This document shows positions 20,977-43,909 of a stretch of 64,000 nucleotides of DNA, piece after piece. Numbering within the stretch: the stretch's first letter is position 1; every line of letters begins with the position of its first letter. The position numbers and the translations under genes were made by a program. A model generated the notes under the pieces. The model saw only the letters and a list, made by a program, of their open reading frames with translations. It ran no database searches and was not told the origin of the DNA. The stretch covers positions 43,611,363 through 43,675,362 of the forward strand of contig CM026426.1 in NCBI GenBank assembly GCA_014871385.1, read 5' to 3'. Origin of the DNA: Ceratodon purpureus. Lineage: Eukaryota > Streptophyta > Bryopsida > Pseudoditrichales > Ditrichaceae.

Positions 20977-20979
20977 GAC

Positions 20980-21964: not shown

Positions 21965-22019
21965 GGGAAAGTTAGCATGCGTGCGGCGAGCGGCGAGCGG
22001 AGAGCGGCGAGCGGAGATG
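21965..22019 (+). repeat. Left terminal inverted repeat of the MULE
   Basis: GGGAAAGTTAGCATGCGT followed by about 35 bases of GCGGCGAGCGG/AGAGCGG units. The right end read on the minus strand has the same unit order with one more AGAGCGGCGAGCGG unit. Confidence 0.85.
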
Positions 22020-22218
22020 GGAGAGCAGAGATTCGACATTTTACAAAGTTTTTGGGAAAAGAAATGCACCCTATAACCGTGGAGCAGTACTAAATTTAGG
22101 GCTCTATTTATAGAAATCAGATAAAAAAAGATAATTAATTCCGTGGATTTATTATTTGAACTACTTTATTTCACATTAACTTATACACGACATCTATATA
22201 GAGAAAGGAAATTAGGGC

Positions 22219-22237
22219 TGACGTCGTGATGACGTCA
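22219..22237. promoter_or_regulatory. Paired TGACGTC(A/G) sites upstream of the F-box-like gene
   Basis: TGACGTCG at 22219-22226 and the perfect palindrome TGACGTCA at 22230-22237. In plants this is a classic bZIP/TGA-factor (as-1-like) element, often seen in pairs. It lies about 250 bases before the TATA box at 22490, so stress- or hormone-responsive control is plausible but inferred. Confidence 0.5.
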
Positions 22238-22489
22238 TAATCCTAGCTAATAAGAGAGAATATTTAAATTAAATGAGCTCTAGGATTTCTTGGCCTCTGT
22301 TACACTGAAAAGAAATTTGCATAGCAGATAATATACCTTTGAAAACTTCTTGGGATATTTCAGAATAGGTGTACAATAATGTTTATAATGAGTCCAAAAT
22401 TATATACCTCCTAGAAATGCCTGAAATTATTGTTAGTCTCTTTGTCTTTGGATAAGATCTGCTGTACCTTTATAAGTCTAGTGTTATAC

Positions 22490-22497
22490 TATATAAA
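22490..22497 (+). promoter_or_regulatory. TATA box of the F-box-like gene
   Basis: TATATAAA, 97 bases upstream of the ATG at 22587. Confidence 0.6.
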
Positions 22498-22586
22498 CCT
22501 AGGTGGGTTGAGTTCAACTTATTTCAATCAGCTATTGGTTTAGGACTTTAGTGTGTGTTGGTTATGGTAGACATAGTTTTGAGAGA

Positions 22587-23099
22587 ATGAGCAATTCTCT
22601 TGAAGTCATAGCTTGTGAAACAATTCTTCAGGATTTGCTACAAAGGATGGCAGATGGACCTAACCCTTGGGAGTCAGTGGGCTCTAGTACAACACAGTGT
22701 TGGTCTCCTCCACTGGTAATTACATTTGAAGATGTTGAGAATGCTCGTGCTGTTTCCAAGCTCTGGAGACGGGAGATTGATAGCAGTACAGAATACGCTT
22801 GCCTCCGACTTGCTAAGTGGGATTATGATTCATACACGGGAGGGCACTGGACTTCCAGGGATGAGTTCCAAGCGGTGCGCTTCAATGTGAACTGGAACAT
22901 TTTTAAGAATTCTTGGTCATTAGCAAATCCAATTGGGAATGACCGGCTACAAACAACGTCACTTGGTGAACTTAGTTGCAGTGAGTTAGATCAATTGAGG
23001 ACATTGTTAAGTGGGAATGGTAACCAATCTCTGTGGCTTGAAGCGGGAGAGAAACTCATTCCAGATGACGGTATTTGGGTCTCACCTAAACATAGATGA
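22587..23099 (+). CDS. Small F-box-like protein of the MULE
   Basis: The frame from the ATG at 22587 gives 170 residues (MSNSLEV start); an upstream alternative at 22551 is not an ATG. It begins with a helix that resembles the start of an F-box, then has V..A.AVSKLWRREI followed by LRLAKW, which recalls the end of an F-box. The rest is an unrecognised, Trp-rich region. If truly F-box-like it would contact Skp1 in an SCF ubiquitin ligase, but this rests on pattern resemblance alone. TATA and TGACGTCA elements lie upstream. It is the first gene inside the left end of the MULE and reads towards the zinc-finger gene. Confidence 0.45.
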   Translation: MSNSLEVIACETILQDLLQRMADGPNPWESVGSSTTQCWSPPLVITFEDVENARAVSKLWRREIDSSTEYACLRLAKWDYDSYTGGHWTSRDEFQAVRFNVNWNIFKNSWSLANPIGNDRLQTTSLGELSCSELDQLRTLLSGNGNQSLWLEAGEKLIPDDGIWVSPKHR

Positions 23100-23958
23100 G
23101 ATAGATATAATTATCAAACTATTAATGCAAGATTTCTGTATATTAGAAACAGAAAATCGATAATTATATAAACTAAAAATTCCTATTCGAATTTTGGTTT
23201 AGCAAATGTATTCACATTTAGTTATGTATGCCTATGAATTGGACAGAAGTCCAATCATTTAATTGTTTCTTTTCTCCAACTGAAAGAAAATAAATTGTAA
23301 CGGTATAGTCCTATTGTTATTTAATTTTTAATTGATTTAATTTTTATGATGTATCTTCGATACACTTGCCATTCAAATCATTTTTTTTTGATGTATCCCT
23401 TTTTAAAAAACCAAATTATTTTAGACTATTGCTACCAGTTTATCATTTGGATTCTACTATTCATTGGTAATATTTCATCCCCTTTTACCCCTGGTCAGTT
23501 GTATTATTTTTCAAACATTCTAGTGATTCTTATATTCATTATTGTTATTTATCCGTTTTGTTGAGTTTCTTTCGTTTTGTTGAACCCTTTTGTTCAGCAT
23601 GATGTTAGCCATTCTGGAATTAGTCACTTATCATTCATTCAATTAACTTATCATTCATTCAATTAACTTATCATTCAGGCTCGGCTCTATGGTGTAAATG
23701 TACAAGTGACACTCTAGGGGTTCTGTAATTAATGGCAATGGCATCTTCAATGTAACTTGGGATTACCATGTCGTTATCGATTCATTAATGTCTACAAGTT
23801 CGTACATTGTCTCGCACACAAGCATCTGGAAACCATGTCGTTACGTCTTTGGCTGTGTCTTAGAAATGTGGCTTCGCACAATTGTTTGTCCATGGTTTTA
23901 AACTTGGCTAAGTTTTCTATTTGTTTCTTTGGAGGACGTATTCCTTGATTACTCGGTC
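23100..23958. other. AT-rich intergenic stretch with a short tandem repeat
   Basis: No supported gene. At 23626-23679 a 20-base unit (acttatcattcattcaatta) is repeated almost three times. The pyrimidine-rich stretch before 23930 could be the end of a 5' intron of the next gene. Confidence 0.55.
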
Positions 23959-25431
23959 ATGACATACAAAAGGTCTAGAGGGTCTCGACAGCAGCGGACC
24001 AAGACCTCTGGTCCAAACGATGCTGCTGAGAGTGGCGAGGAATTGGTCCAGAATTCTGTGGAAGAGACCTCTACCGACCAATGGTATTGTGCAGAGGAAT
24101 TTGACCAGCCTTTCGATCTAGGGGATATTCAAGGAGATGTGCGCGACAAGATGATCGTAGCAGCTCCAATGTTGATGGGTCGGTACGCTGAGTATGGCAG
24201 AGGATTTTTTACAGACGTAGTGGGCTTATGTGATCACGGACCTCTAATCAGGAATGTCGCAAAGGTGTACAGTTTTATAAGGGACGAGGAGATTGGCGCA
24301 GTATGGAAGGAAGGAGCTACAAAGGGGCGCTACGAACTGGCTAGGTGTGAAGATCCTGAGCTGCTCAAGAAGTTTCGACACCATTTCTTTAAGGTATATG
24401 GGAACAAGCCCGACAACACCTACTTTCCTTTACGATTTCTCAAGGCTTGTTATGCAACCTTTGTTCATAACAAGCCGGTCAATTGGTGCGCTGAGGCCCT
24501 TGATCGGCATAGTGCGCGATTGAAGAATGCAAGGAGAAATCCTGCTAAGTTGGGACCGATTGCCACTCGATGTCAAGTAGAGGGCCTTTGTAGAATTATA
24601 CAGGAGCTGTCATGGAAGTCAGGGGAAGATGCCACAAATGTGCAAGAACTGTTAGCTGCTCAGGAGGAAGAACGTGGGCGTAGTAATGAGATGATCTCTG
24701 TCAAGATTGTCTTTGAGGAATCTGTGAAGAAATTCAATGCAGCTTTGGAGAAGATGACCACTGAGGCTACAGATGCCGCGGAGGAGGCTCTGAACTTGAA
24801 GTATTCTGAATTACAAAAGAAGTCAAGGCGCGTCTTAATTGAAGGGGGAGCAGCGCAGGAATACAAGGCTTTAACAAGTGAGATGGAGTCCATTTCAGAG
24901 CAGATTGCTAAGCTACGAGATACTGAGTCAAAACTACAAAGCCGAGTACTTGAACTCAGGTCTGAAGTTAACAAGCAAAAGTTCTCTCTAAATTCATCAA
25001 CTTTGGCATGGGAGAGCGCCAAGGCTAATGTGGAGAAGGTTAGAGGGAAGATGCTTACCATGAAGACTCCAAAAGTTTTCGACTATCCGCATGAGTCAAT
25101 ACCTCCTTTGGGTATTTTGGGGCAGGATACATGCTCTTACTGCAGATTAGGATTTGTTTGGAAAGCCGCGGTTCTATGTTCTTGTGGGTGCTTTTTACAT
25201 CCCTCTTGCGTTGCAGAATTAGTTGCTAGTCAAAATTGGAAGTGTCGAAAGTGTAAGGACCAGCTTCTTGCCTCATCGCCCTTGCATTTTACTGGTCAAT
25301 GGGTTGCTCAGTTTGGTGGAGAGCTGGACCAGCAACAGCGCACCAAATGTGCTGGATTCTCTGATGTTCTTCGGATAGTAAAAGAGCAGGCTCTTAAATC
25401 TGGACCAAGTGCACATGGAGCCAAAGGATAG
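23959..25431 (+). CDS. MULE-borne coiled-coil zinc-finger accessory protein
   Basis: The 490-residue frame from ATG 23959 (MTYKRSRG) has a basic then acidic leader and an alpha-helical N-terminal domain ending near residue 175 in KPVNW. A long coiled coil covers about 240-370, and a C-terminal cysteine/histidine finger covers about 391-431 (C-x2-C, C-x-C, H-x2-C, C-x2-C), of RING or RING-like type. An E3-ligase or protein-interaction role is inferred. The frame is open upstream to 23929 without an ATG, so a spliced 5' exon is possible. The layout (VNW-ending domain, coiled coil, finger) matches the hAT protein at 4621-6906, and the first two parts match the protein at 49186-51210. Confidence 0.75.
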   Translation: MTYKRSRGSRQQRTKTSGPNDAAESGEELVQNSVEETSTDQWYCAEEFDQPFDLGDIQGDVRDKMIVAAPMLMGRYAEYGRGFFTDVVGLCDHGPLIRNVAKVYSFIRDEEIGAVWKEGATKGRYELARCEDPELLKKFRHHFFKVYGNKPDNTYFPLRFLKACYATFVHNKPVNWCAEALDRHSARLKNARRNPAKLGPIATRCQVEGLCRIIQELSWKSGEDATNVQELLAAQEEERGRSNEMISVKIVFEESVKKFNAALEKMTTEATDAAEEALNLKYSELQKKSRRVLIEGGAAQEYKALTSEMESISEQIAKLRDTESKLQSRVLELRSEVNKQKFSLNSSTLAWESAKANVEKVRGKMLTMKTPKVFDYPHESIPPLGILGQDTCSYCRLGFVWKAAVLCSCGCFLHPSCVAELVASQNWKCRKCKDQLLASSPLHFTGQWVAQFGGELDQQQRTKCAGFSDVLRIVKEQALKSGPSAHGAKG

Positions 25432-25446
25432 AAAACAGGTAGAGTA

Positions 25447-26940
25447 TGTTTGAATTGAAAGGGACAATACATTTTGAAGACAATTGTATTTGGTTGTTGT
25501 TTGTTCTTCAATTCCTCGAAACTTATTTGCTTCTTTTAATACTTCTGGATTTAGGCACCTTGTTTTTTAGTACTATTTTGAATATGAACTTTTTGACCCT
25601 TTCTCCTCTAAAATCAGTATTCAAGTTTCTCACTATTATGTTAACTTATAGAATGAAGTATCCATGTTAACATTCTATTGTTGATTATCTTCGTGGAATT
25701 TAAAAAGAGAAACTGTAATATTGTTTCAGCTAAAAAAAAATGTACAGTCACAGTATTGATACAATCTGATTTTAGGGGTTCATCAATTCTTAATTTTATT
25801 CCAAAATGTTATTGTGTTATACAGATTCCCTAATCAACAGATGGAATTACTACTTTGTAGAATTACTGCGGGATGTTATAGTTAAGTAAATGATAATATA
25901 ACCATATATCTTATAACATGGAATATTTAGGATATTAGATGGTAGAAAATAATACCTTAGTATGATGGAGTTGTTGGTGCTTGAATAATAAACGTTTTTT
26001 TTTTTTTAATTGCGTGCAAATGTAATATTTGCAAAACTGTTGGTGCAAATCAAGTTCATGAGTTTATTAACTTGATAAAACAAACAGAACACAGGAGGGA
26101 TTCCAATATAAAAAATGAGCAAAACCAAGAATTTTTTACTCAATGTTCTGTCACCTGATGGATTAAAAAGAGAAAGGGGAGGGGAGGGGAAGGAGACGGG
26201 AGAGGGGAGGGGATGGGAAGGAGACGGGACCAGGGCGATGGGAACGAGACGGGGGAGGGGAAGGGCAGGGGAAGGGGATGCGGAGGGGATGGGGAGGGGA
26301 TGGGGAGGAAAGGGAAGGGGGGAGGGGAAGGGGAAGGGGGGAGGGGAAGGGGAAGGGGATGGGGAGGGGAAGGGGAGGGGGATGGGGAGGGGAAGGGGAG
26401 GGGAAGGAAGGGGGGAGGGGAAGGGGATGGGGAGGGGAAGGTGAGGGCAGGGAAGGGGGGAGGGGAAGGGGAGGGGAAGGGAGGGAAGGGGGGAGGGGAA
26501 GGGGAGGGGAAGGGGAGGGGAAGGGGAGGGGAAGGGGAGGGGAAGGGAGGGAAGGGGGGAGGGGAAGGGGATGGGAGGGAAGGGGGGAGGGGAAGGGGAT
26601 GGGAGGGAAGGGGGGAGGGGAAGGGGAGGGGAAGGGGATGGGGAGGGGAAGGGGATGGAGAGGGGAAGGGGGGAGGGGAAGGGGATGGAGAGGGGAAGGG
26701 GGGAGGGGAAGGGGAGGGGATGGGAATGAAATATAAAAACGGTTAGCCATTAAAATGAAATGAAAGAGACAATACACTTTGAAACCAATTATATCAGGTT
26801 GCTCTTTGTTCTTGAATTCTGCGAATATTATGTACTCCTTTGAATACTTTTGTTTTTCAGAACCTTGTCCCTTCGTACTATTATGAATGTGAACTATTTA
26901 AGCTTTCTTCCCACAAAATCAGAATTCAAATTAACCAGAA
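25447..26940 (+). repeat. Diverged 185-bp direct duplication flanking a GGGGA array
   Basis: About 25447-25630 and 26752-26940 align along their length (for example gacaatacattttgaagacaatt versus its partner, then TTTGTTCTT, TTCAGAACCTTGT-like and AAAATCAGTATTCAA-like blocks). The first copy starts right after the zinc-finger gene, so it is probably its 3' UTR, duplicated. The copies are clearly old. Confidence 0.65.
26170..26730 (+). repeat. GGGGA / GGGGAAGGGGAT microsatellite
   Basis: About 560 bases almost purely of purines on the plus strand, built from GGGGA, GGGGAAG and GGGGAT units. It can form G-quadruplexes or triplex DNA. Long open frames through it on both strands are only Gly/Glu/Arg or Pro/Leu/Ser repeats caused by the composition. 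Confidence 0.95.
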
Positions 26941-28346
26941 TTTGTCAACTAACCAAATTCAAAAATAACATTTAGAAACAATGAAAGTATGTGGCCATTC
27001 CAAAAGATCCACCCATGGGCTGCTTCCAACCATAACTGAAAAGCCCAAAAGAACCTGCAAAATATCAATACAAACATCAACAAGTGTGTTCGGCTTCAAA
27101 CTTCATGGTGATTTTAATAGATGGGAACAATGACCTAGATCAAGAGCAAGAATACCAATTACTTGATCCCTCAAATGAAGACCATCATCGAACATGTCAG
27201 TGTTACAGCTGTCTGCGTTCCTTGATCTTAAATGTGCACTTGATCGAAAACACATTTACTAAAACATATTCGAAAACCCAATCAAGTAAATGCTACTGCA
27301 TACATCACAAGAAATGCTGACAATATATCCTGTGTATCCAGCCTCCATCCATGCCTTTCCAATGGTAACAAAGAAAATCTTAGTGGAAGCATGTACGATC
27401 CTGCAATTAAATGCATAAAACAAGTGTTATCTGTTTGGTCATGGTTTTCTTGTTTGAAAAATCAAAGTAGGAAATGGAAGACTGTGATGCTTACTAAAAA
27501 AATATGCTCACTAATTGTTCCCAAATGAATGTAAGATTTACATTAAAAACATGTGAAATTGTCTTATTATAAAATGCCTAACCCACCTCTTGAAAAAGTT
27601 TCAAAAAAAAGTTGTACGTCCGAAAGTTTGGGTTTCTATCTTTTAACTTCTATTATCTTGTTTTTCATACTATCAGAAAACCATGGAAACCAGACCTGCA
27701 ACAAACAATATCATATAGGCTGCTTTAGCATACCTCATAGAAGTCCAATTCAAGATTTCTTTGTTGCATGGCATTCTTGTGCTCATAGTGTCGATTTCAA
27801 TAATATGACAAATTCCTTGCTGAGTTTTCCACCAAAGAGAGTGTTCGTTTCTGGCATAAACTTGTTCTTCTCAAAGTGCAAAGTTGCCCGGAGACCCTCC
27901 TGGCAATTGTTTAACTGCTAAAGAATGTTCTCAGTCCCACATCATACCAATTGGCTAGTAACTTGTCCCTTTTTTTTTTTTCAGTCAGTCTCTTTCCGCT
28001 CTCCATCTCTACAACGGGATAGTCCAGAACTGTACCAAGTACATTGCTATATGAACATGTGCAGAGGAATTTATGCGTACATACCCAATATATATATAAG
28101 CTTCAACTAAACTTTAATTTCACTGTTATTTGACTTGGACATGCGAATCGTTTGACTTTTTGCTTTTGACTTTTTGGATCCTCCAAGTATTATTTAAAAT
28201 GTTTACAGGGCTGCCTTAGTGTTTACTTTGAACAACTGCAAGGCCACGTTAGACTGAAGCAGAAATTTATGTGGATTGTGGCAATTTGCTTACTGGATAT
28301 GCAACTAAAAACAAGGATTCAAATAGTCGTGTGAGAAGATAGAATG
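26941..28346. other. Intergenic stretch, no gene seen
   Basis: AT-rich sequence. Short open frames occur but without domain character or consistent splice signals. It is the 3' side of the convergent zinc-finger and ParB/methyltransferase genes. Confidence 0.5.
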
Positions 28347-31300
28347 CTATGGAGAAAACATATCGTCACTTTCTATTGCACTGTGGTCAATATATTGCAA
28401 AACTCTAGGGTCATAGCTACGCGGTGACGAGGACGCACTCGAACTATGCTCAGACTCCTCTGCAAGGGCCTGAGCTCTCGCCTCGGCGTATGATGGAAGC
28501 CTCCAGGTATTTTCAAAATCGAAATTCGATTCGCTGGAAGGAGATGTTGCACTCATGCGACTGCAAGACATTTTCATTAATTAGAATTTATGTAGCACAA
28601 TGAGATACAATCAATATTGAAGTGAATGGTATTTTTGTGTCAGTATAAGACTTACTCACATAAATCTATTTTTTCCTCTTCAGGATATGGAGCTTCTTCA
28701 TCAGACAGCTCCTGGACATCGGTCTGATCGGCACCCGAGTTATTTGTAGGGGGCGTTTGGAGTGATAGCAGAACATCCTCATAGATTTCGCTGTCCCCTT
28801 CAAGAGCAACAATATTCCTGTTGGTTGATAATGCAGCACGGACCGAGGCACCTGTAAGAAAAAATTGTTAGATTCATATGGTAGTTATGACATAATATGA
28901 CAGAATATGATCAATATATATTCACTAATGAGTTCAAAATAAAAAACCCTTTGATATGAATTTAAACCTGTTCTAGCTGTTAGGTCGACGATCGTGCCAT
29001 TTAACGGACAAGTTCCAGAAATAAGAGACTGTAGAAGAGCATACGACTTCTCTTTTGGGCCCCTCCATGGCTTGCCGTTACTCCTCTTAAGACAGTCGTT
29101 ATCGGTAACAAAGTTGAATAGCACATCGTCCTTTGCCAGGTTAGTCATGCCCATTCCCTTGCTCGAGGGTAGGAGAAGAGGCTTTGACTGCCTAGGTACC
29201 GATGCCCCTAAGGATCGGACAAGCAGGAATGCCTTGAACTTCAAGGTCTAATAACCAAGACAGAGGAAACATTAGAATCACAACCTCTAATACAATAAAA
29301 GGCAATCATTTCGTAAGAGCAAATAATAAATACTATGCAGATTTGCAGAAAAATCTTACATAGCTGCTGGGGTCAATGGGATGAGTCAAGTGGAGTGCGT
29401 TGATTATAGACCACTCCTTCATCTCTTTGAGATTGTTGTTGTTCAGAAAAGCAATCAACTCCTTCTTGAAGTGTGTGCTATCCGGACCAAAAATCAACAA
29501 CGCTCCATCGTCATGCAAATAACCACCGCAAAAACCAATCACAAATTTAATAAAGGACTTAACTTGCTGGTTCCAAGCGGGGGTACTTGTGTGGGTGGAT
29601 CAGAGACTCCAGGAACCGGGAGGCCGTCTGGAAAATCCGCAATAACGAGGTCCACTCCGGGCTTGAACATTAGCTTTCCAGAAAAATAAAAATCCCGTTT
29701 TTCACCAGTCTGAATTCCCACAAAAGACAATAAGTAATATGATCAATAAAAGAATGTGCTAAATCTAAATACAATGAAGGATTGAACGAATTACCTTCAG
29801 GAGTAAGTAAACCATGTCATAAAAGCTTTTGGGGAATTTCTTGTGCTTGTTCTTGTAGTCCATCATGTTTGGAAACGTGTCGTTCAGGATCAAAACTTGC
29901 GAGCTATGTCCTGAACTCGAGGTTGGCTGGGATATGACCAAGGACTTCAGTGATGGCGGAATGAGTGGGGTACCTGAGTCTGGGTCTTGTACTTCAACAT
30001 GGGGCTTTTTCTGAGGTTGAGGTTTTGGAGCAGGAGACTTCGTATGTATTGGTGCTACCTCAGAAGGAGGTGGTTTCTCAACCATGTCGCCACTCGCGGC
30101 CGTAGTAGCAGGAATATCTTCATCCAGAGTCTCTTCGTCCAAATCTGCAGCTTTGCGTTTGCCACCTCGAGGCTTGGTCGCACCGGCTGCCCTTCTGGTT
30201 TTCTTTGTCGCAGTCGGAGAGACACCTGCTTTTGCTGGAGCAGGGGCAAGGGTCGCAAGAGTAGGCTGGAGCGAGTCCCGGAGTTGCACATCAAAGGGGG
30301 GTGGTTTCTTAACGGGGCAGTCAAGGTACCATCCACAACGATCATAGTGACAGTTGTCCCAAGCCTTTAAAATAGCTGGGATGAACATGCATTCGGGACT
30401 AGTGGTGTCCAAGTAGGTGGGGAAGAAGGCAGGTACCCGAGACACGGCCTTCCTTGGAAGCAAAACGTACTTAAAATATCTGTACAGAATTCTCCTCAGA
30501 GCTGGCTGGAAATTAGGCTGTTGATCCTTTGTTTTGTTCTTGTGAGCCTGATCTGGTCCCATGAATTCTCTGAAAAAAGCGATATCCCAAAGAGAGCATC
30601 GCATGCCCTCGACATAGTCAAATATGCTTTCAATAGGGTTCTCGCCTTCTGGACAGAAATTGATTTTCACCCCGAGGTCGGTAACCACTGCCTCGAAGAG
30701 CTCCTCCGCTTCCACTGCCAACTGAACAATCCAGTATGTAGTTAAGAAACCTCTGGTCATGAAAATACGCACTAGTTAAAATGAAATGACTATTTACAGT
30801 AAGGTTGCAACCCGAATAACTTATCCAAATAAGGGTGGAAACAATCATCATTCCAATCAGTTCACGGTGGTTCAAGAACTCAGGCAAACATACAAAAAAC
30901 GAGCCCAGCGAGCTCTGCATAGCCAACAAAGCCACAAATCTTGAGTAACAAATACTGCTTTGGTACTGCCGTTGACGGCAGTACATGCGAAGTCACCACT
31001 CATGCGAAGTCCCCACTCGTGAAAAATGTACTGCCGTTAACGGCAGTACCAAAGCAGCGAGTCATTAAGTTATAATGATGGAAAGAAAACGAATCAACAT
31101 GAAATAAAAAAAAACCGTGTCTCGACAGAACTATATAAGTCACCAAGATTTAAGGTATTAAACCTAAAAAAAATGGAAGGCATTTGTACTGCCATTAACG
31201 GCAGTATATCTGGAACCCCCTGCCGTCACACAAAAATGGGAAGACTTTGTACTGCCGTTAACGGCAGTACCAAAGCAGCGAGTCATTAAATTATAATTAT

Positions 31301-34300
31301 GTGAAGAAAACGAATCAGCATATAATAAAAAAACCGTGTCTCGACAGATATAAATAAGTCACTATGAATTTAAGTCATTGAACCTAAAAAATTTGAAAGG
31401 CATTTGTACTGCCGTTAACGGCAGTACATCTGGACCCCCCTAACGTCACACAAAAAATGGGAAGAATATGTACTGCCGTTAACGGCAGTACCAAGACAAT
31501 GACTCATTGGTTTCAATGATAAGATGAAGATGAATGAACTCAAACAAATAAAGAACAAAGCTTAGTAACGTGTGCATTGAATACATAGTCTCTCGACTAA
31601 CAATTATGGAGTGCATTTGTACTGCCGTTAACGGCAGTACATATGAAGTCACCTGCCGTGACCCAATAATCGGAAGAAAAACTACTGCCGTTAACGAGAG
31701 TAGCAAAGCTGCGAGTCTTAAACTTTAAATGATTCATAGAATACGAAACAACTTAATCATTCTAAAATCCGTGCTCACTAAATTGTGCCTTGATTTCGAA
31801 GACACTTAACAATATCAAATGGAATATAGTATTACTGCCTTTGACACCATAACAAATTAAGTGATTATGTACTGCTGTTAACGGCAATAGCAAAGCAACT
31901 AATTTCATAATTCAAGATAGGGGTGCAAGGTTATATAAACATCATAAGGCTTTTGCAAAGCATTTAGTACATCTCAAATAAGGAATCAAAATTGATGGAA
32001 AATATGTAGATCTAAATACCTGTGCCCACCATGTGGCTCGGTGAAGCCATGGAGGGAACACTGTATCTGCAAATGACGGCTTTGGAAACCGATGAGATTT
32101 GCGGATGGACTCAGGCGAGTTCCAGCGTTCTAACCACTTGATCTTCATTTTGGTTGGAATGGCAGATGTTGCAAACATGTGGAGTTTCTCTTGCTGCATT
32201 TCGGGAGACTTGTTCTTCTCATAATGGAGCTTTACCTGCTCCAAAAACGCAGGTGTATGCTTCGGATCCGCCACCGGTAGGAATTTTCTGAGCTCTCCTT
32301 GTTGCGTGGCAACAACTTTCTCCACGGCTAATCTAACCCACTCATCCACAGACTTGTTGGTCCACATGTGCTTTTCCGGATACATTTCATAGAATCGCAG
32401 CTCCGCATTTGAAGCCGCTTCCCCTATTTCTTGCTGGTGTATCGCCAAGATATTAAATTAGAATACTCAGAGTTATATTACCAAACAATTCCAATCAAGG
32501 GAACATGAGACTTACAAGTTCAGAATTCGTACCTGGTATAGAAATGCATTCAGGGACTCAAGAGTAAGTGTGTACCAAGTACGCTTAGCCCCAGCCTGTT
32601 TCTTCTTTGCACTCTCAATGGCTGCCGGTGGTACAAGGCCTTCAAAATAGCTGAACGGCTGCGGTGCTACGCTCTGGATCCGAAAAGTTTATGAACCAAA
32701 TTCGTTGTCACGTGTGACTTCTGGTTTCTCCTATTCATCAAACCAGCCATAAGCTTTAGCCATTATTCGATACCAAATTGAAAACAATACCAAACTGAAA
32801 CAAAAGAAGATTACCAATTGACTTCGTGCAAAGCCGCAATGACTGCAGGGATATCGCCTTTTGGATCGAGTATGACGCTCTCAACCCTATAGTGCCAATT
32901 TATGTCCCGGGGGTGGTACTCGTTAATGATCGGATACCACGCTTGCAGGCGGTGATTACCGTCCCACACCTGAAACATCTTGTTAGAAAACATTCTTAAA
33001 TCCTCGTCTTCCTGCAGAGTTTTCTCAAAGTCTTCATTTACTTCTCTCCATTCCGGGCTCCAACTGTTTGTAACAGCCGGTGTGACATCCACGGTGTGGC
33101 CGAGGTTATCCTGGAGAGCAACGTAAAAGAATCCGTTTCCTTCCAGGTAACCAGTCTTCACAAAGAAGGAGGCCAGTTGTGAAACATCGGTCTTCAGATA
33201 TGGCCGCACGACTGGCAACGAAATCATTCTACACAGCGGAATAAACAGTCTGCCCTTAGTCCTTGGCTCCCATTTCAACTGATCAAGCCGCGATGCTGTA
33301 TTCGGTATCTCCTTCTCCACCAAGTCGTGGAGCTTTGCTTTCACCTCACTCTCTGTCAATGAAACGGCTTCTGCAAAACCAGCAATGATAATGTTGTTAG
33401 TGATTCACCATTGAGCATTGAAACTACAATCTATAAAGTATCCTTATGGTCATCCTGAATATAGTAAAACAATGAGAATAATGAAATCAATATCAAGGCA
33501 AAGGTACTGCCGTTAACGACAGTATCATTTAGGTCAAAGTAATATGAATTCAATCAGCAACACCATTAACGGCAGTACGAAAACTTTGTCATATTATTTA
33601 GATTAAAAGTAATACATCGGGAATAAAAGATGAAGCAGAGCAACTACATAAAATTGCGAACAAATCATATGATCATAAAAATTAGCTATGAATCGGTACT
33701 GCCGTTAACGGCAGTACATTATGAGAGAAATAAAAGTTCACTACAAACTACATGAAAATGTACTGCCGTTACCGGCAGTACAGAAGCAGCGTACCATTAG
33801 TTGTAAAATGATTTTATATCATACCTCTATGTCCCCCTTAACCTCACATACCCTCCTCTTGCTAAGCTGAAAGGGCATATAATAACCACATAGAAAATGC
33901 GTGAATTTGTACTGCCGTTAACGGCAGTACCAAAACAGCATATTAGAATAAAAAAAAAATGTTTCTGTACGTAGCTGAATTCACAAGGACCGTTAACAGA
34001 GCCAAAAAGAAACATCAATTATGTACTGCCGTTAACGGCAGTACATTTGGAGACCCTCAAGTTCCCACTGACATCCGCATGATAATGTACTGCCGTTAAC
34101 GGCAGTACATTTGGAGACCCTCAAGTTCCCACTGACATCCGCATGAGAATGTACTGCCGTTAACGGCAGTACATTTGGTTGCCCTCAAGTTCCCACTGAC
34201 ATCCGCATGAAAATGTACTGCCGTTAACGGCAGTACATTTGGTTGCCCTCATGTTCCCACTGACATCCGCATGAAAATGTACTGCCGTTAACGGCAGTAC

Positions 34301-36536
34301 AGAATTGGCTTATCTTCAATTGGAAAATTAGCTCGCTAATTCTAATAATAGTGATAAACATTGCTTGCCAACTATTCAAAAGGCATCATCTCGGTACTGC
34401 CTTTAACGGCAGTACATTTGGAACTACTCCCTTACCCGTCGAAAATGGCAGTAAAATGTACTGCCGTTAACGGCAGTACATAAATTGCGTGTAACAAGCT
34501 GAAAATAATGATACCATACGAAGCAGTAAGCTTAACACATTGCTTCAAAATACATTTAGGATTTCAATTTTGTTTAGTAAAGCAACTCAAATAATGCTGT
34601 AAAAATCATTTGCCGTTAACGACAGTAGTAATAAGTCAAACTACATACAGACTTACTTTAGTTAGAATCCCAGCCAGAGTGCTAACAAAATTGAAATTTT
34701 GGATACAAAATACGTTTGTAAGGTAGCTGCCGTTAAGGAATTTACAATGTCAGCAAATGATGCATCTCAAAAAAAGACATAGAATTCAACAGCCGTTAAC
34801 GGCAATACAAATTAGCTCGTTAAATAAAAAAAAAATATATGTCGAGTCCTATGATACTGCCTCGGTCTTATAGTAACATCTGAAGTGTTACTATAAGATG
34901 AATATCATTTACACTTGCTGAATCCTAAGACAAAACCTAACTCAGAAAGTATACAATGCTTTTCATTAAATTCTTCTCAAAAAGAAAAAATTCAATTTGA
35001 AATGCGAGTAGGTTTTCAGTTTCAGGAACATTTAAAGTAAAGGCCGTGGCGCTACAAAACTAATCGAGCCATTTCAGCCATGAATAAAAACAGCAGTTCA
35101 GATAGAGAACTGCAACCGAAGACAACACCACATTATACATTTGTACTGCCGTTAACGGCAGTAGTATTTTAGAGCTATTAGAATACCTAGACGTCGAAAC
35201 ATCTATGCAAAGAAATAGTCATCATAATGTACTGCCGTTAACGGCAGTACAATGGCGAACACTTTTAAATACTGTCACCACAAATTTTACTACAACTCTT
35301 CTAGATAAAGAGCAGGGTTTAAGCAGAGTTTCGTGTGAGCAAATCATCGAACTTGTACTGCCGTTAACGGCAGTACTATTAGCTGAAGCAAAAATACTGA
35401 AGGAAGAAAATTGAAGCAAGAAATCTGAAGCTAGAAAACTGAAGCAAGAGCAATCAACAGAAGACTATGAACCTCTTCTTTCGCAAGAGCATGAACATCA
35501 AATCTGAAACATCAAATCTGCACCTTGTCGCCATCGAAGAGGTACATCTGATTGGCCCTAACACAAACTGCGGTATAACACAATCGTGAATAGAAAAAAC
35601 ATGCTGCAGAATAAGAACTTGCGCACATACCTTCAGATGGCTCCGGCTATGGCTCAGTCTCTGCGTCATCTTCTGGGTCTTCATTGTCACCGCGATCTCC
35701 TCCCTCTGTTTGTTGCTCGTCCTCCATAGCCTCGTCTTCATCACCGAGTTCAGAATCTTCGTTGCGTGCACTGGAAGGAGGCACTCTTGACGCCTTGTTC
35801 TGCGTCACCTCCTCCTCTGATTGCTCTGGTGCATCAAGCTGAGGCGCCATTCTCTGCGACACAATCAAAGACAGAAATTAGGTGTATGAAAATGACCCAA
35901 ATTTTAAAACCTGCAGAAACTCTTAGGCCCTTCACGGGCCAAACCCACAATTCCAACTTGCAAAAATAATCATATGTGCTTACCCTAAAGTAATGCTGAA
36001 GTGCTCATACACAACAAACTTCAAACGAACCTAAGAACCAAGAAATGAGGTCCGCCCCTAACCCTAAAGGCAGAGCAAGTAATCTAGACTTGCGCAGAAC
36101 TAGCTATCATTAGGAGGCGAAAACGTACCGAGTTGACATTCGAGTGTTTTAAGAGTTCTGTAAATGTTGGCAGATGGAACTACTGATGGTAACCTATCAG
36201 GGTAAAATCCAGTAACCTAATTCATAAAAACATTCGTAAATGATAACATAAAATATCTCATACCTTATTTCCAGCGCTTACACTTGTATCAAATACCACG
36301 ACTTTTGAGTTTTGATGCTTGTTACGTCTTCCGTAACGCAATGTGCTATCTTCTTCAATGCCCCCCAGTGCTGAATCTCCGTCTGTTTTCTCAAAGTCTA
36401 ATGCTCTAGTTATGCCATCCTTCAGAAATCTTTCAGCCTCTTTTCTAAGTCTAGCCATCTTACTACGTCTAAGGGTCTTAGTGCTACTAAAATGTGACGA
36501 CACTTTCTTTCGCCGCTTCTTAGGTATAGCCAGCAT
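28347..36536 (-). CDS. MULE-borne ParB-like / amino-methyltransferase-like fusion protein (10 exons)
   Basis: I built this gene from GT-AG sites that keep phase: 36536-36264, 35853-35631, 33370-32815, 32671-32533, 32433-32020, 30721-29795, 29709-29360, 29247-28968, 28851-28656, 28560-28347 (about 1190 residues). Exon 1 is basic (PKKRRKK), a likely nuclear signal. Exon 3 is ParB-like: LPVVRPYL, then QLASFFVKTGYL, and VWDGNHRLQAW near residue 300. Exon 6 is a Lys/Pro-rich linker. Exons 7-9 read like a beta-class N4/N6 DNA methylase: VDLVIADFPDG in the DPPY place (residues ~869-872), ALLIFGPDS, then VDLTARTGASVRAAL and NIVALEGD as the SAM-binding motifs near 1049-1075. DPPY is replaced by DFPD, so catalysis is uncertain. 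Two defects exist: a TAG at 35647-35649 and a one-base shift at five G (plus strand, about 29586-29590). ParB-methylase fusions are known in bacteria and phages. The first exon could belong to a separate gene. Confidence 0.7.
30963..31888. repeat. Palindrome cluster A, in the large intron between exons 5 and 6
   Basis: Nine copies, five perfect, of a 22-bp palindrome: GTACTGCCGTT followed by its reverse complement (core TGCCGTTAACGGCA). Perfect copies start at 31028, 31249, 31405, 31470 and 31619. One-change or degenerate copies start near 30963, 31185, 31683 and 31867. They lie in intron 30722-32019 of the ParB/methyltransferase gene, and none is in an exon. A perfect palindrome of this size suits a dimeric DNA-binding protein. 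Confidence 0.9.
33504..35376. repeat. Palindrome cluster B, in the large intron between exons 2 and 3
   Basis: About eighteen copies of the same 22-bp palindrome (core TGCCGTTAACGGCA). Perfect copies start at 33696, 33909, 34023, 34087, 34151, 34215, 34279, 34458, 35229 and 35355. Near-perfect copies start at 33760 (GTTACC centre), 34394 (CTTTAA) and 35143. Degenerate ones lie near 33505, 33565, 34611, 34728 and 34790. All are inside intron 33371-35630 of the ParB/methyltransferase gene. Spacer sequence is mostly unrelated, which suggests selection or copying of the palindrome itself. Confidence 0.92.
34023..34300. repeat. Five palindromes in a 64-bp tandem repeat
   Basis: Palindromes at 34023, 34087, 34151, 34215 and 34279 are exactly 64 bases apart. 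The 42-base spacers (catttgg, then ccctcaagttcccac, then tgacatccgcatga) are nearly the same, with a few changes. It is a local tandem amplification of one palindrome unit. Confidence 0.95.
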
Positions 36537-37118
36537 AGCACACTCAAAACATGAAGAGGCAAACAGCAAAATGATAGGTTTCACTCATAACAGCAAAATG
36601 CACACACACCCTAGAAAATAGATGACAAGAGCTTCAGTCAGTTCTTATATAGAGTCCTCTCATAATAACGAAGAATACATGGATGAACGATATCTGTCCT
36701 CTACAACATTGACATTCACTTGAATCTGCAGACTTTCAAATCGTGCAAAGCCGAAATTTAAGGAATTTTCTATTTTCATCTAGAAATAACAATTCCAATG
36801 CCAGATCTAACTACAATTAATATCAAAGACGGCTATGCCTAATAATGTGCAAACATTAGACGACTAGAAAGTGGACCATGATGTGAATATTATAAATACT
36901 TTGGAATGACACGTCTGCACACCAAACGACGGCTCCATAATTGATTCATTCTATTCTCTCTTAGTCCTTTTCATCTACGAATATGAGGTATATAGAATTA
37001 ACTTAAATGAATGTATAATTCCACTTAGAATAAATAGAGTGAGCGCAATGTCCTATTCCTCTCAATTTGTGTTCACAAATTCCTTTAGCACCAGTTCATT
37101 ATATCAGCACATCTTAGT
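36537..37118. promoter_or_regulatory. Shared head-to-head promoter region of the two main MULE genes
   Basis: The ParB/methyltransferase gene (start 36536, minus) and the transposase gene (start 37119, plus) diverge from this 582-base AT-rich interval. No clear TATA box was chosen on either strand. Co-regulation of both genes is inferred from the arrangement. Confidence 0.5.
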
Positions 37119-40100
37119 ATGGCTCATCTCCCTGCAGACAGAGTGTTAGGCATGGCCGTGCTCAGAGCACAGGGTGTTGGTATTCCACTTACAGTACGTG
37201 TAGATGAGGATGGCTTGGCCCTTGTGACGGCACAACGCCTTAGCCTCAGATTTCACTTCAGAGAGGAGACTATCTGTTTAGAGGAAGAGATTTATGATGA
37301 TGAGACAAATGAGATTACACATACGCTAGATCAGGTTTCTGAGAAAGATGATGATGATAACAGGTTCTGGAACCTTTATCCTGGTAGATACAGAGTTTAT
37401 GGTCTTACAGAGTCCCAGATGCAGGCGTCTACTGAGATTCTAACTCCTCGTAGATCATCTACTGTTCAGACTCCTCTGCCTCGTGATGTGAAGGTTAAGG
37501 TAGAGCCTGGCTTGGACACTCCTGATGTAACACCAGTCATCTCCCTCTCATCAGATGAGGAGACTAGTCCTATCAAGGCATCACCTGCTTTGCCTAGAGA
37601 GACTGTAGTATCTAGCACGCCAGCTACACTACCAGAGAAATGTGCCAATACCTCACAGACATCAAAGGAGGAGACTGTCAATGTACTACCACTCATCAGG
37701 ACACTTGCAGAGAGACCTGAGAGGAAAAATATTCTGAAGAGAATAGATTTCTCCACAGTTCGTCAGGAGAAGGTGGAATACTTACCTGCAGTCTTCAACA
37801 ACAATGTGATATTTGAGCTTCCTCCAGTTGGTGACGGGGCTTCCAAGACGCAAGCGAAGGCTATGAAGGGGATGGACAAGCGGTACGACGGCCACATTTG
37901 GACGAAAACAATCACTACCAACATCACTAACGAATTCGGCCTGTCGTTCCGCTATTCCAGCTGCGTTGGTTGGCTGTGCTGCATCAACAAAGAATGTGAA
38001 TTTCTCAACCGTCGACCTCGAATCGTTGAGGTAAACGAGACTGAGTTTGAGGGTAGTACCCTTCAAGCTTTTACAGTGAATCAGCCACCCCCAACGGATG
38101 CAACACTTGTCTGCAAGGTATGTAAAGAACCTCCTGCATGCATTGCTACATGCGGAGCCAAGATTTATTACGTTCTAGGCAAATCCAACCAGACTAGGGC
38201 ATGTATCCATCAAGGAACACATAATCATCCAGTGAAGGTTGGGGACTATAGAGACACTAAGGAGGAGATCAATAGCTTGATTGAAGAACAGGTGGAGAAT
38301 ACTCCCCGGGCTATGAAGAGCGCCGTTGTCTTGGAGGCCAGCAAGATTCTGATTGGGAACTACCTCCTACAGCCTGAGGACGCACCACCGAAGAAGCTCA
38401 CTATGGAGGAGCTCATTCCTGTACTTGACCGGTGCAAGGACATGGCTTCCCCAAATATCCGCAACAAGGTGATGACGGTCAAGCGAATTGGAAGGTACGG
38501 AGTGATGGACGCCATCACCAAACTCCGTGGGATCAGTTTGTGGGCCTTCGTCCAGGAGAACAAGTTCCCGGGCCAAGGAGCTGACAGAGAGAAGGTCTTC
38601 GTCTTCAAGATGTCAGAAGTTGGGCCGGGTTGCGGTGTCGACTTAGTCACCAGAATGCAACCTGGTGGGGATCTTGACAATGCTTGGATTATGTTCGACC
38701 ACGTGAAGCGGGTACGGGATTGGTCCACGATGGCTTGCCATGTATATGACGCCACCTACTGCCGCGTCATGACGATTGCAAGTTGCGACATGCAATCCGA
38801 GGACACCGAGGCTCAGCTGGTCTTCTGGAAGAACCTAAACAGCGTTACGGAGAGGAATGGCGTTGCAGCGCCAAACTTCAAGGGCTTCATGGCGGACAAT
38901 GCACAAGCAAATTGGAATGCGGTGCGTATTCTCTACGGAAACGGCAACAAAGAAGACAAAATGGAGGATCGGGAAAGGTCATGCTTGTTCCACTGGACCC
39001 AGAATATGGTCCAGTACACGGACAAGTACTTCCCCGAAGAGCTCCGGGAACAGCACAAGAAGATGTGCAACCAGTATAGGACAGCAACGACTTTGACAGA
39101 GGCAGACACTCTTTATCACGCGTTGCAGGCATGGTGGATATCTACTGGAGTCCTGGGAGAGAAGGCCCTAACCAATCTGGGGACTTGGCTCGCATTCTGG
39201 CACCACCGCTATCGTCAATGGGGTGGATTCATGTCTGCGGTATGATGCTACTAAACCCTACTGCTGTACTTTTTTCTGTAGAGGTAAATTTACTCGACAT
39301 CACTTCTATAATTGATCCTAATAATTGTAATTGCTCAAACTGCAGAAATTTACTGAAGAAGAACTCACAGAGATGCCGACCTATAACCTCGCCGAAACAG
39401 TTCACAATAAGTGGTTACAAGCATCAGGTAACAACGGCAGCGACCTCTATGTTGCGACTGTGGACGATTACGTTCGGGGCTTCCTGCAGGTTGTAAACTA
39501 CTACCAGTTCCTGAAAGGAGATGTAGGCGGAACTGGACCTTCAAAGAAAGAACTTAAGCTTCGCATGGCGGAACGATTGGCGAAGAAAACAGGAAATCCT
39601 AAAGTCCTTAAAGTTCCCATGCTGGATATGCCTGGTGCAGATGAGTTCTGCACCCGTGAGCCTGTCCTAGCCGGAGCAGAGGTGTTTGGATCACAGAAGC
39701 GTAAGGCGGATGTCCCCATCGGAGCTGACGAGGAGTCACACCGACCAGACAAGGTTAACTTCTCACGTCCTAGAGGTGTTGGACGCAACGTTCGAGCTCG
39801 CACTGTCCAGCTGCCCATCATCGTCGAGGACGATTCTGAAGAAGAAGAGGCCCAAGAATCTCCCGCCCAAGAAGCTTACTCGCCCCCAACGTCTCTTGTG
39901 AACGAGGTCGGCGTTCGCCATGTCAACGCTGTTGAAGAAACCAAGGTTGATGTGAAGGAGTGGCACATTGCAAGACTTCACAAAGCTTCTGCAAAGTGCT
40001 GCTGGGCCCAAAGAGCTGGTACAAAAAAGAAGTGCACTGAGAGAATCGTCAGAGGCCCAAACTTCACTGCTGCACCGACCTACACCGGAGTTTGGACAAA

Positions 40101-40830
40101 CTATCGCAGGAATACGGTTGAGAGGACAGAGTTTTTCTTCTGCTCCGATGATATTGAGCGCTGCGTGAAAGGCACGAGGCGCAAGTGGGTTGCACACTAC
40201 TCCAAGGACCTCGAAGTGCCGCCGATTCCAGAGGTGTGGCCCGTAAAACTAGGTACTAACCTGAAGCTTAATGAGATCCTCGCCCTTGAAGCTGCAGGGT
40301 TCCAACTCCCGCCGAAGAAGCCTGTCTCCCCAAGACGTCTCTTCTCGTCTGCTCCGCCTCCTGCAAACCTCGCTTCGCTGCCGATTCCAGCAGAGGCTGA
40401 CCGCTACCCTGGTAAGCGAGATGGGAAGATGGTCAAACGCACAGCAACTCGACCTAACCCAGCACAGCGACTCTCCATGGGCTCCTCTCAGTCCCTCAAG
40501 GCTCGCCTCCGTTCCATCACCATGATACCTCATCCAGGCCATGGTTGCATCATCGGGCTGGATTCGGGCGTTGCTCCAAACATCACACAGTACAACATCA
40601 CCATCACCTCTTACCCGAGTTGCACTTGTCCAGCATTCAAGAAGACGATGACTAAGTTTCGAGGTAAGATACAGTTTTCATACTGTAAACATATTTATTA
40701 CATCCTTTTAAAGGTCTGCAACCGTAATCCGGAGGCCGAGCTTTTCATCCATGCGCCTACCTTTAGTTTCAACGAAGTCAAGCTAGTCCTAGAGAGCGGA
40801 ATCTTGACACACCCCTTGGCCAAGAAATAG
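37119..40830 (+). CDS. MULE transposase (GCM1/WRKY-like finger, DDE domain, SWIM finger)
   Basis: Two exons, 37119-39239 and 39346-40830, joined in phase 0 (GCG|GTATGA donor, CTGCAG acceptor), give 1201 residues. An acidic Ser/Thr-rich N-terminus is followed by a GCM1/WRKY-like zinc finger (cysteines near 280-290, HNH at ~368-370). The MULE catalytic domain has Asp in YDATYC (residue 544), Asp in ADNAQ (593) and the C-x2-H motif CLFH (622-625). A C-terminal SWIM finger has CTC at 1133-1135 and CKH at 1154-1156. These are the known parts of Mutator-like transposases, which cut and join the element ends in the nucleus. No stop or frameshift was seen, so this copy could be active. The small hypothetical gene downstream is convergent. 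Confidence 0.88.
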
Positions 40831-41083
40831 GAGGCACTATACTATTATGGTCTCAAGTATGCATAGTAGACAGTGGTACATGCGGATACTTAGATGATTG
40901 AATTTTTCCTTGTACTGAGTCAGCAATACAAATCTCGTATTGCCTATTTCAATATAAAGGTTTTGTCATTCACATTTATTACGTTGTATTACAATACCAT
41001 TCATTTCAACAAGTGGCATTTGTTATTTATATCAACCCACAATTGGACTGTACTCACTCCTTGAATACATTCAAATATAGATT

Positions 41084-41535
41084 TTATTCCTTGAACTTAA
41101 TGCGTTTAGGTATCCCCTTCGCATTTTCAGCACAATCACGAACTACCTCCTGCACTACAGGACAAGCTACATTGACATTCATTGTTCGTTCCCTAATTGG
41201 CACTTGTCGTGGGCGGGGACGTTTCAACAATGGAATAGCTTCACTCTTTCCACGTAATGCCTCCCTAGAATAAGTCCCCGGTGGAATCTTCCCGACCTTG
41301 GAGTATGCATGAGGTGCGAAAGGGACAATCGGTTCTTCCTGGGAACTACGAGAACGCGTGGCTCTTCTACAGCCACTATGTCTCCTATCACATCTATTGT
41401 TGCTTGCACGCCATCATTTTCAGAATGCCCTTCATTGCACCCATTCAACTCCTCTTCCCCCTCGACCTCCTCATACGGATGAAATGGGCCAAGGACATCA
41501 CCAAGTGAGATAGTGGTTTCCCCGGCAACTTCCAT
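41084..41535 (-). CDS. Small hypothetical MULE protein, probably frameshifted
   Basis: From ATG 41535 an acidic region runs (MEVAGETTISLG start, many Glu), then at about 41330-41380 the coding character moves to another frame. That frame continues as a Pro/Arg-rich stretch (KIPPGTYSREALRGK, then LLKRPRPRQVPIRER) to a TAA at 41084. A single small indel would join them into about 150 residues; an overlapping pair of short genes or an intron is also possible. No domain is recognised. It is convergent to the transposase and lies next to the right end of the MULE. Confidence 0.4.
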
Positions 41536-41894
41536 ATCACAACACGCTCTTCTTGGAACTTGATTCAAGAAGAGCACGAACAAAGAGGATGAGAGCTTCT
41601 ACTGCCTCTACTTAAATATTGAGGAGGTAGATGCTCGGCGCCCTTGAATAGTGGGATATATAAGAAGGTTTAAAAATTATAACACTCCATGGCATGAGTA
41701 GGTTTGACATCACTGTTTTGATTAATTTGTAGACAAAATACCCTAAACCATCAATGGAGAGTGAACTAGAAGGTCTTTCAAAAGATAAAAGATAAAAAAT
41801 GAAAAGGTAAAGACTTAGAAGATAGTAAACTATAGGACGAATGAAAAAAAAAAAAGTGATTAATAAAAGTCGAAATGAAAGAAGATAAAAGATG

Positions 41895-41978
<84 letters not shown>

Positions 41979-42480
41979 AATGTATATATTTATATATATA
42001 TATATATATAAAATTGAAGAAAAAAAAGAAAACAGTGTAAAATAAACTAAAATTAATGATAATAGAAAATAAAAACAATGAAAAGATAAAAGGTATGAAA
42101 GTTGAAAATAATTAAAAAACGATTAAAGATAAAAAGAATAAATGATAAGAAAGAGCTAAAAGATAAAATGTTAAAAAAAATAAAAAATTAAATAAATATA
42201 AGATAATAAATGCAACTTCTAGATGATGCATTAATAATACCGTAAATAGTATTTAAAATTAAAACCAAGAAGTGAATAACACAAATGAAAAATCAATATT
42301 ATCAGAAATAGTGAATTCCAGTCCACGGTTATAGGGTCATAATTATTACCAAAAATAGTAATATTCTCCGAATATTCTAAAAATATTCTGAGAATGTTCG
42401 AATTTGCTAATAATAGTTTTTATTTTTAGTAATAATATTACTGTTTTTAGATTTAGACCTCTATTTTATGCTCGTCGGTC
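41536..42480. repeat. AT-rich stretch with (TA)n microsatellite
   Basis: No gene is seen. A (TA)n tract with occasional AA interruptions covers about 41896-42012, and A-rich low-complexity sequence surrounds it. It forms the right subterminal region of the MULE. Confidence 0.8.
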
Positions 42481-42485
42481 ACCAA

Positions 42486-42554
42486 ATCTCCGCTCGCCGC
42501 TCTCCGCTCGCCGCTCTCCGCTCGCCGCTCGCCGCTACCATACAAGCTACCCCC
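42486..42554 (-). repeat. Right terminal inverted repeat of the MULE
   Basis: Read on the minus strand it begins GGGGGTAGCTTGTATGGTA and continues with GCGGCGAGCGGCGAGCGG and AGAGCGGCGAGCGG units, as at the left end. It ends directly at the 11-bp duplication. Confidence 0.85.
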
Positions 42555-42565
42555 ACCCCGTAGAG
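42555..42565. repeat. Right 11-bp target-site duplication of the MULE
   Basis: ACCCCGTAGAG, identical to 21954-21964. Confidence 0.9.
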
Positions 42566-43324
42566 CATCCGGGTGTGATAAAGTTTTGGGCCATTCACTC
42601 GAAGACCATGGAAGCTTATACCCTGTGGTGGAATGGAGATTGCCTCCGCAACTTCCTCAAATGAAATGAGAAGGCGTCCGAGGCAACAGATTACAAAGAA
42701 ATTTTGAAGTCGAGGGATATGCCCATGGAAGAGTGCCAAAGAATTGTTGCCTATTGAAAGAACCGGGGAATGTTGGCGTGGAGTCTCATCTACGTTATGG
42801 ACATAGTCCATAAGGCTGAAATCCTCCACAACGACTTAACGCCATCCAACATTCTACTCCACTTTCCACCTCATGACAAGGATAAAGTATATATTGGTGT
42901 GAGCGATTGGGGTATGGCAAGCAGAGTCATTGAGAAGAAGGCCTCCCCTTATGGTGTGATGGACCCCGATGATCTTGTACGAGTAAAGAAGAGGAGTGTA
43001 GGAGTTGCACCGGAGTTGTTCTTTTTATATGGCAAGAAAGATGATGAGGAACGGAATTTGGAGCGCATGAAGAGGATGCATCCATGTACGACGCTATCTG
43101 ATGCATTTTCGGTAGGCCATTTGGCAAAGAAGATATGGAGAGAAGAAGATTGCCCAGAACTCTTCAAGGATTCAATCTCAAAGATTGTATTCTCATCAAA
43201 GGTAGATGGCTTGCTTAACGAAGATCCTACAAAGAGGCTTTCACTTGCAAAAGTTGTGAATGATTTGATGAGCCCCCCTTACAACTTCCAAGCTCCCAAT
43301 GGTTGTTTTAGATACACATTGTAG
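42566..43324 (+). pseudogene. 3' part of the protein-kinase-like gene
   Basis: The frame continues from the left half with HPGVIKFWAIH and the hinge-like TLWWNGDCLRNFL, then the catalytic loop HNDLTPSNILL (42827 onward; Asp at 42833-42835). A DWG in place of the usual DFG lies at 42905-42913, followed by an APE-type VAPELFF and a C-lobe ending at 43324. The catalytic Asp and Asn are kept, while HRD is HND. Two in-frame TGA codons (42662-42664 and 42755-42757) interrupt the region between hinge and catalytic loop. Both could come from CGA by loss of a methylated C. With the frameshift and the MULE insertion this copy is dead as a kinase. It was probably a cargo gene of the hAT, since it has its own array and TATA box. 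Confidence 0.75.
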
Positions 43325-43851: not shown

Positions 43852-43883
<32 letters not shown>

Positions 43884-43904: not shown

Positions 43905-43909
43905 ACGAG

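Follow-up and report, generated by a model that had tools for sequence, protein, structure and literature searches.

What does a spliced gene with a methylase-like C-terminus do inside a plant transposon? The question is raised by a 64,000-nucleotide stretch of Ceratodon purpureus DNA (contig CM026426.1, positions 43,611,363–43,675,362; hereafter the window), in which an element resembling Mutator-like elements (MULEs) carries such an accessory gene on the minus strand, next to a divergently oriented transposase gene. We propose that a large family of MULE-like transposons carries exchangeable cassettes and that the gene makes up the accessory half of one. Its product would be nuclear, would probably act as a dimer and would bind DNA sequence-specifically; its methylase-like domain would have kept the S-adenosylmethionine-site motif and lost the catalytic DPPY. 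The cognate sites would be TGCCG-N4-CGGCA inverted repeats with lineage-specific outer and central bases, lying in the introns of the gene itself. By binding these arrays the protein would mark elements of its own lineage and no others, most likely protecting them from silencing in the way that VANC proteins protect VANDAL elements. We infer the binding, the dimerization, the loss of catalysis and the direction of the effect. We regard this account, which leans on the analogy with VANC, as reasonably probable.

Lineage-specific palindromes in the introns of one gene

The preliminary description had read ten phase-keeping exons as one spliced transposon gene with a nuclear signal, joining a ParB-like to a methylase-like domain. 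Its parts are as follows.

28347..36536, minus strand: accessory gene, ten exons, start at 36536 and stop at 28347
36264..36536, minus strand: exon 1, basic N-terminus resembling a nuclear localization signal, basic in loci L035–L037 too
35631..35853, minus strand: exon 2, acidic, with an in-frame TAG near its end in the window copy
33371..35630, minus strand: intron 2, holding 15 of the 24 palindromic sites, at 33505–35375
32815..33370, minus strand: exon 3, the most conserved part and the claimed ParB part
32533..32650, minus strand: exon 4
32020..32433, minus strand: exon 5
30722..32019, minus strand: intron 5, holding 9 of the 24 palindromic sites, at 30964–31889
29795..30721, minus strand: exon 6, conserved in its first half, then a low-complexity linker
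29360..29709, minus strand: exon 7, region of methylase motif IV, with a frame break in the window copy
28968..29247, minus strand: exon 8, methylase motif X and the start of motif I
28656..28851, minus strand: exon 9, remainder of motif I
28347..28560, minus strand: exon 10, serine-rich and acidic C-terminus

The single-gene reading holds. All nine introns are bordered by GT and AG, and the donor of exon 9 does not differ among the ten copies read, nor the acceptor of exon 10 among the nine aligned. The gene recurs in at least 150 genomic copies: queries with exon 6 and exon 3 each gave at least 150 matches, with identities of 61–100% and 63–100%, respectively, among the matches listed, and the read-through protein retrieved 88 exon matches. 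Median pairwise ratios of non-synonymous to synonymous substitution rates (dN/dS), computed on pairs with dS of 0.1–0.9, lay between 0.049 and 0.198 on five exon pieces, and no pair exceeded 1. The medians were 0.066 for exon 3 (23 pairs), 0.049 and 0.198 for the first and second halves of exon 6 (167 and 173 pairs), 0.092 for exon 7 (177 pairs) and 0.107 for exon 8 (127 pairs). We conclude that the exons are under purifying selection; a spliced gene with a basic, nuclear-signal-like N-terminus inside a transposon is likewise supported.

The window contains 24 occurrences of a 20-bp palindrome, TACTGCCGTTAACGGCAGTA, at up to three mismatches, 16 of them exact. Every occurrence lies in intron 2 or intron 5; the rest of the 64-kb window contains none, and shuffles give 0. 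Part of intron 2 is an array:

34021..34301, no strand assigned: 64-bp tandem units, with one palindrome TACTGCCGTTAACGGCAGTA per unit

Sites of the TGCCG-N4-CGGCA type were present in all 25 intron-2 samples, taken from 25 gene copies and most about 1.85 kb long, with 2–27 sites each at up to one core mismatch. The top inverted pair exceeded the maximum of 20 shuffles in every sample, the weakest being L050 (2 versus 1). Such sites also lie beside exon 6 in 28 of 30 main-clade loci. L013 and L014 were considered as site-free counter-examples and rejected: their intron 5 is interrupted by other DNA, apparently a long terminal repeat (LTR) element, and a repeat beginning TCATCCAGTCGGCT in it resembles the LTR-type repeats at 52–58 kb of the window. 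At locus L001 (C1:7084906-7087925) there are six TGCCG-N4-CGGCA sites, not all of one kind, and the 3-kb stretch yielded no accessory exon.

From one protein lineage to another the sites differ in their outer and central bases, as seen across all 25 copies tested, and they fall into six classes.

Class M1: GTAC-TGCCG-TTAA
Class M2: GCAG-TGCCG-TTAA
Class M3: GTAC-TGCCG-GCAA
Class M4: TGCCG-GCAC/GTGC
Class M5: GCGA-TGCCG-GTAC
Class M6: TGCCG-GCAA, with loose flanks

Flanking bases that had played no part in finding the sites were dyad-symmetric in 546 of 712 pairs, where about a quarter would be expected. Support for class M5 is thin: four of its five copies, with 2–4 sites each, were left out of this count and of the Mantel test below. 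Genome-wide there are 964 M1 sites (at up to one mismatch), 240 M2 sites and 123 M3 sites; reversed controls gave 0. Among the sites listed, which were the first in contig order and not a random sample, 197 of 200 lay within 5 kb of a gene copy (M1, 49 of 50; M2, 50 of 50; M3, 98 of 100), and the 5-kb zones around gene copies make up 0.44% of the genome.

Site class and protein diverge together. On the exon-3 tree the six classes require 6 changes, close to the minimum of 5; the shuffled mean was 16.3, and none of 200 shuffles was as low. Taken singly, M1 and M6 fell short of significance (as few changes in 32 and 45 of 500 shuffles). Distances between motifs correlated with those between proteins (Mantel r = 0.73; 0 of 2,000 permutations as high) over 21 of the 25 introns, four having been dropped for too few strict sites. 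Divergence of the protein does not always bring a new site, since the copy at C1:18.07 Mb, with an exon 6 only 52% identical to that of the window, keeps the same M1 sites. Motif arrays that lie in the gene's own noncoding DNA and diverge with its protein are of the kind known from VANC. These patterns suggest that each element encodes a protein recognizing its own DNA. Sequence-specific binding of the element had been put forward in the preliminary description; the lineage-specific intronic sites, which that description lacked, give it strong if indirect support.

Cassettes between near-identical arms

The gene lies in an element that also carries ORF182, ORF500 and a divergent transposase gene.

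21965..42555, no strand assigned: MULE-like element of 20,591 bp, with a 10-bp direct repeat at both ends
21955..21964, no strand assigned: left target-site duplication, CCCCGTAGAG, 10 bp
42556..42565, no strand assigned: right target-site duplication, CCCCGTAGAG, 10 bp
21983..22033, plus strand: core of the left terminal inverted repeat, 92% over 51 bp against 42485–42535
42485..42535, minus strand: core of the right terminal inverted repeat, pairing with 21983–22033
22551..23099, plus strand: ORF182, an open reading frame (ORF) in the left arm, 95.6% identical in an element on contig C9
23929..25431, plus strand: ORF500, the second cassette gene, with a coiled coil and a C-terminal Cys/His cluster (by eye)
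36537..37118, no strand assigned: intergenic stretch between the divergent genes
37119..40830, plus strand: transposase gene, two exons at about 37119–39239 and 39346–40830, with a SWIM-like CxC..CxH motif

Joining the flanks of the element by script gave a 115-codon stop-free frame across the junction. In 39 of 40 matches from other copies, homology starts with the first base of the left end, and in the remaining match with the second; at the right end, of which 286 bases were compared, it stops at 284–286 in 25 of 40 matches and at 231–256, inside a repetitive tail, in the remaining 15. The element is MULE-like on the strength of its inverted ends, a duplication within the 8–11 bp range of MULEs, and transposase motifs that we take to be MULE-like. 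Pfam gave the transposase a weak SWIM match, under the cut-off (E = 0.053 and 0.15), and reported no MULE domain; for ORF500 it named no domain. Genes at 4621–6906 and elsewhere in the window resemble ORF500 by eye. Kinase-like gene sequence surrounds the element (21144–21848 and 42770–43324; Pkinase E = 1.4e-7 on the right side).

An exon-3 match was found within 30 kb of 72 of 89 transposase matches, and in 71 of these the two were divergent; the other 17 had no exon-3 match among the matches listed, and one of them (C6:65574734, beside L037) has a known gene. The window transposase is 94% identical to that beside L037 (dS 0.15) and 91% identical to that beside L036 (dS 0.27), whereas in the same pairs the accessory exons are 55–72% identical, exon 1 is 41–47% identical, and the proportion of synonymous differences (pS) in exons 3–7 is 0.76–0.91, near or at saturation. 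The L035 transposase is older (dS 0.57–0.87). The right arm ceases to be nearly identical to that of other elements at 36801–37119. In three further elements, 95% identity stops at window positions 36801–37030, and beyond this point only exon 3 aligns, at 67–68%. A complete element on contig C9 matches both arms (left, 95.0% over 21964–23615; right, 96.6% over 37119–40528) and differs in the cassette, where the two halves of ORF500 are 60% and 40% identical and exons 1, 3 and 8 are 32%, 70% and 53% identical; here ORF500 has diverged jointly with the accessory gene. The simplest reading of these alignments would be recombination exchanging cassettes.

Several observations weigh against the proposal that the protein reads its own intronic sites. 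Because introns pass down together with the gene, site classes would track the tree through descent alone, and neither the Mantel test nor the tree test removes this effect; shared descent accounts for part of the co-divergence. What it leaves unexplained is that the same class-specific bases occur on both half-sites across all the sites of an intron, many of which have unrelated flanks. The classes were drawn up after the motifs had been seen, and that of L036 is ambiguous, mixing M5 and M6. Dyad symmetry is weak in M4 and M6 sites, whose asymmetric centres favour one orientation on the transcribed strand (M4, 28 GTGC versus 8 GCAC; M6, 14 GCAA versus 3 TTGC); for these two classes an RNA-level role may apply. 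Finally, the window copy is broken. Its exon 2, with the donor GTATGT, contains the in-frame TAG, which a weaker phase-keeping donor upstream, identified by eye, could skip. The exon 7 frame break is common to the close copies L006 and L034, not to L007, and exon 7 can be aligned in one frame in 26 of the 29 other loci (L006–L034).

The main alternative to anti-silencing is self-repression or copy-number control, in which the protein would bind its own cassette and repress elements of the same group, as in phage immunity; cassettes would then differ because heteroimmune elements are able to coexist. The layout is repressor-like, with sites in the gene's own introns beside the divergent transposase promoter, and exchangeable cassettes between near-identical arms also speak for this alternative. 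The sites, however, lie within the transcription unit and not at the transposase promoter, none being found in 36537–37118, and the phage parallel is one of analogy. We consider self-repression unlikely, although it is the most probable of the rival readings.

A lower probability still attaches to the idea that slippage or gene conversion spread the arrays as simple repeats, or that they are sites of a host factor, in either case without recognition by the encoded protein. Some arrays are indeed tandem, with 64-bp units, and introns travel with the gene. Yet among window sites with unrelated flanks the adjacent, unselected bases are 0.83 identical as against 0.35 for the flanks, a contrast that is weaker in M4–M6 (0.35–0.67 versus 0.26–0.37). 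The core, moreover, is common to lineages whose introns otherwise fail to align, and the action of a single host factor would not account for different classes within one genome.

A divergent methylase-like domain and the ParB question

Judged from its sequence, the C-terminus appears to be a divergent N6/N4-methylase domain, as the preliminary description had supposed. PF01555 was matched in four of four lineages (best E = 5.3e-6); the window copy itself scored 21.0 bits (E = 3.6e-4), under the Pfam cut-off of 26.7. Profile–profile alignment (hhalign) with 80 phage methylases placed motifs IV, X and I in order over 179 columns (E = 2.4e-6), the order of beta-class enzymes. Matches to PDB profiles were weak and all to beta-class methylases (DpnA, E = 0.0077; Mbo45V, RsrI and CcrM, E = 0.26–1.7). 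The motifs singled out earlier are all present: DGNHRLQAW in exon 3, DFPD in the place of DPPY in exon 7, VDLTARTG across the exon 8/9 join and ALEGD in exon 9. VDLTARTG, with its ARTG, is nevertheless peculiar to the window copy, motif I reading DL[TN]AGT in the 31 other copies printed.

A working methylase that methylates the arrays or the element is improbable. In its favour, relatives keep the beta-class order IV-X-I and a motif I of D-L-T-A-G-T-G, and the sites have CpG and A/T-rich centres. The catalytic D/N/S-P-P-Y/F/W, on the other hand, occurs in none of the 34 copies read, motif IV being mostly [DE]-[FLI]-P-D, and for this reason the domain is probably not catalytic. The centres also vary by lineage, which leaves no shared target base except in the TGCCG half-site, and the window copy has a damaged motif I. 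The absence of DPPY from all 34 copies likewise makes it unlikely that the protein marks the element's DNA by modifying it, as had been suggested. Just as improbable is an RNA-level function, with intronic hairpins regulating splicing or feeding small RNAs: the stems are perfect, the sites are confined to introns and M4 and M6 centres are strand-skewed, but M3 centres occur about equally on both strands (22 GCAA and 21 TTGC; 67 and 56 genome-wide), and hairpins need only pairing, yet one exact sequence, loop included, repeats in each intron.

The ParB label for exon 3 is unsupported by sequence comparison. Searches of five lineages against Pfam, PHROGs, NCBIfam and PDB sequences returned no ParB profile match, and a profile–profile alignment against 79 phage ParB domains gave 13.8, inside the range of six control pairings (9.9–15.6). 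The best local match, non-significant, aligned DGNHRLQA with the ParB box GHGRLLAA, and a DG-x-x-R box, DGN[HY]RLQAW, is present in the five lineages aligned. An AlphaFold2 model of exon 3 from one sequence was too poor to judge the fold (mean predicted local distance difference test score 37.7; predicted template modelling score 0.27). A viral or bacterial origin was considered and set aside: no relative was confirmed by pattern scans of viral contigs for exon 3 and for the methylase part, or of genome contigs for exon 3.

Contig C6, to which the window belongs, measures 110,524,308 bp, 30.5% of the 362,488,568-bp assembly. A review puts each sex chromosome of C. purpureus above 100 Mb, or about 30% of the 360-Mb genome (PMC8000587). 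Since these proportions agree, C6 is probably the U or V chromosome. It carries 72 of the 150 exon-3 matches among those listed and 40 of the 89 transposase matches. Elsewhere in the window, a satellite at 8034–20599 consists of about 59 copies of a 212-bp unit with 97% matches, and direct repeats at 52013–52465 and 57341–57793, 96% identical, are probably the LTRs of one retroelement. An 851-residue ORF at 44072–46627, hAT-transposase-like by eye, is flanked by C-rich arrays with GCTCGCG (43542–43909 and 47679–47935); similar G-rich arrays lie near 4234–4364, 7347–7580 and 20797–20977.

Comparison with known systems

The closest parallel is the VANC system of Arabidopsis VANDAL MULEs. According to passages of two reports, VANC proteins bind short motifs tandemly repeated in the noncoding DNA of their own elements, with loss of methylation as a result, and the VANC21 motif is the 9-base YAGTATTAY (PMC5735166, PMC10398659). 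As those passages describe it, the likeness lies in an accessory gene beside a MULE transposase and in short motifs repeated, partly in tandem, in noncoding DNA, which differ between related elements along with the protein. The moss system departs from this description in several ways: its sites are 20–22-bp inverted repeats, confined in the window to introns of the accessory gene; its protein has a methylase-like domain; and its arms are near-identical while the two-gene cassette differs. DIRS1-like retrotransposons are, in the part of the source describing them, another case of eukaryotic transposons encoding a methyltransferase domain, with no function assigned (PMC3266345). By that description, however, theirs is a domain of a retrotransposon pol, not a separate gene with cognate arrays.

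ParB–methylase fusions of phages and bacteria (80 loci) have a colinear methylase part, and in both cases a possible ParB-like part precedes it. The moss gene differs in having no detectable ParB part, several hundred residues of other exons in between, ten exons, no DPPY and no viral or bacterial relative in the pattern scans. In the immunity regions of lambdoid phages, a DNA-binding protein and its operators are swapped as one cassette between otherwise similar elements. The moss elements would resemble them in exchanging protein and sites together, although theirs is a eukaryotic transposon with intronic sites and the likeness is one of layout only. More tentatively, and with somewhat less than even confidence, we suggest that the family could be a eukaryotic counterpart of phage immunity exchange, in which a near-identical chassis carries diverged cassettes, each made up of a degenerate methylase as DNA reader and intronic palindromes, for the recognition of self and non-self among elements that share one genome.

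Our literature search found no paper on this transposon gene family, and the words methyltransferase, methylase and ParB do not occur in PMC6446971. VANC was the only case found in that search of a transposon protein co-evolving with motif arrays of its own element. The moss family looks unrelated to VANC and would use inverted-repeat sites; a single genome contains at least 150 copies of it, with six or more site classes. Near-identical arms around diverged cassettes amount to a natural experiment, and the code linking protein and site is directly testable by cassette swaps in vitro; because the sites contain CpG, sensing of methylation is testable as well. If the proposal is correct, the family would offer a collection of DNA-binding specificities whose cognate sites are known.

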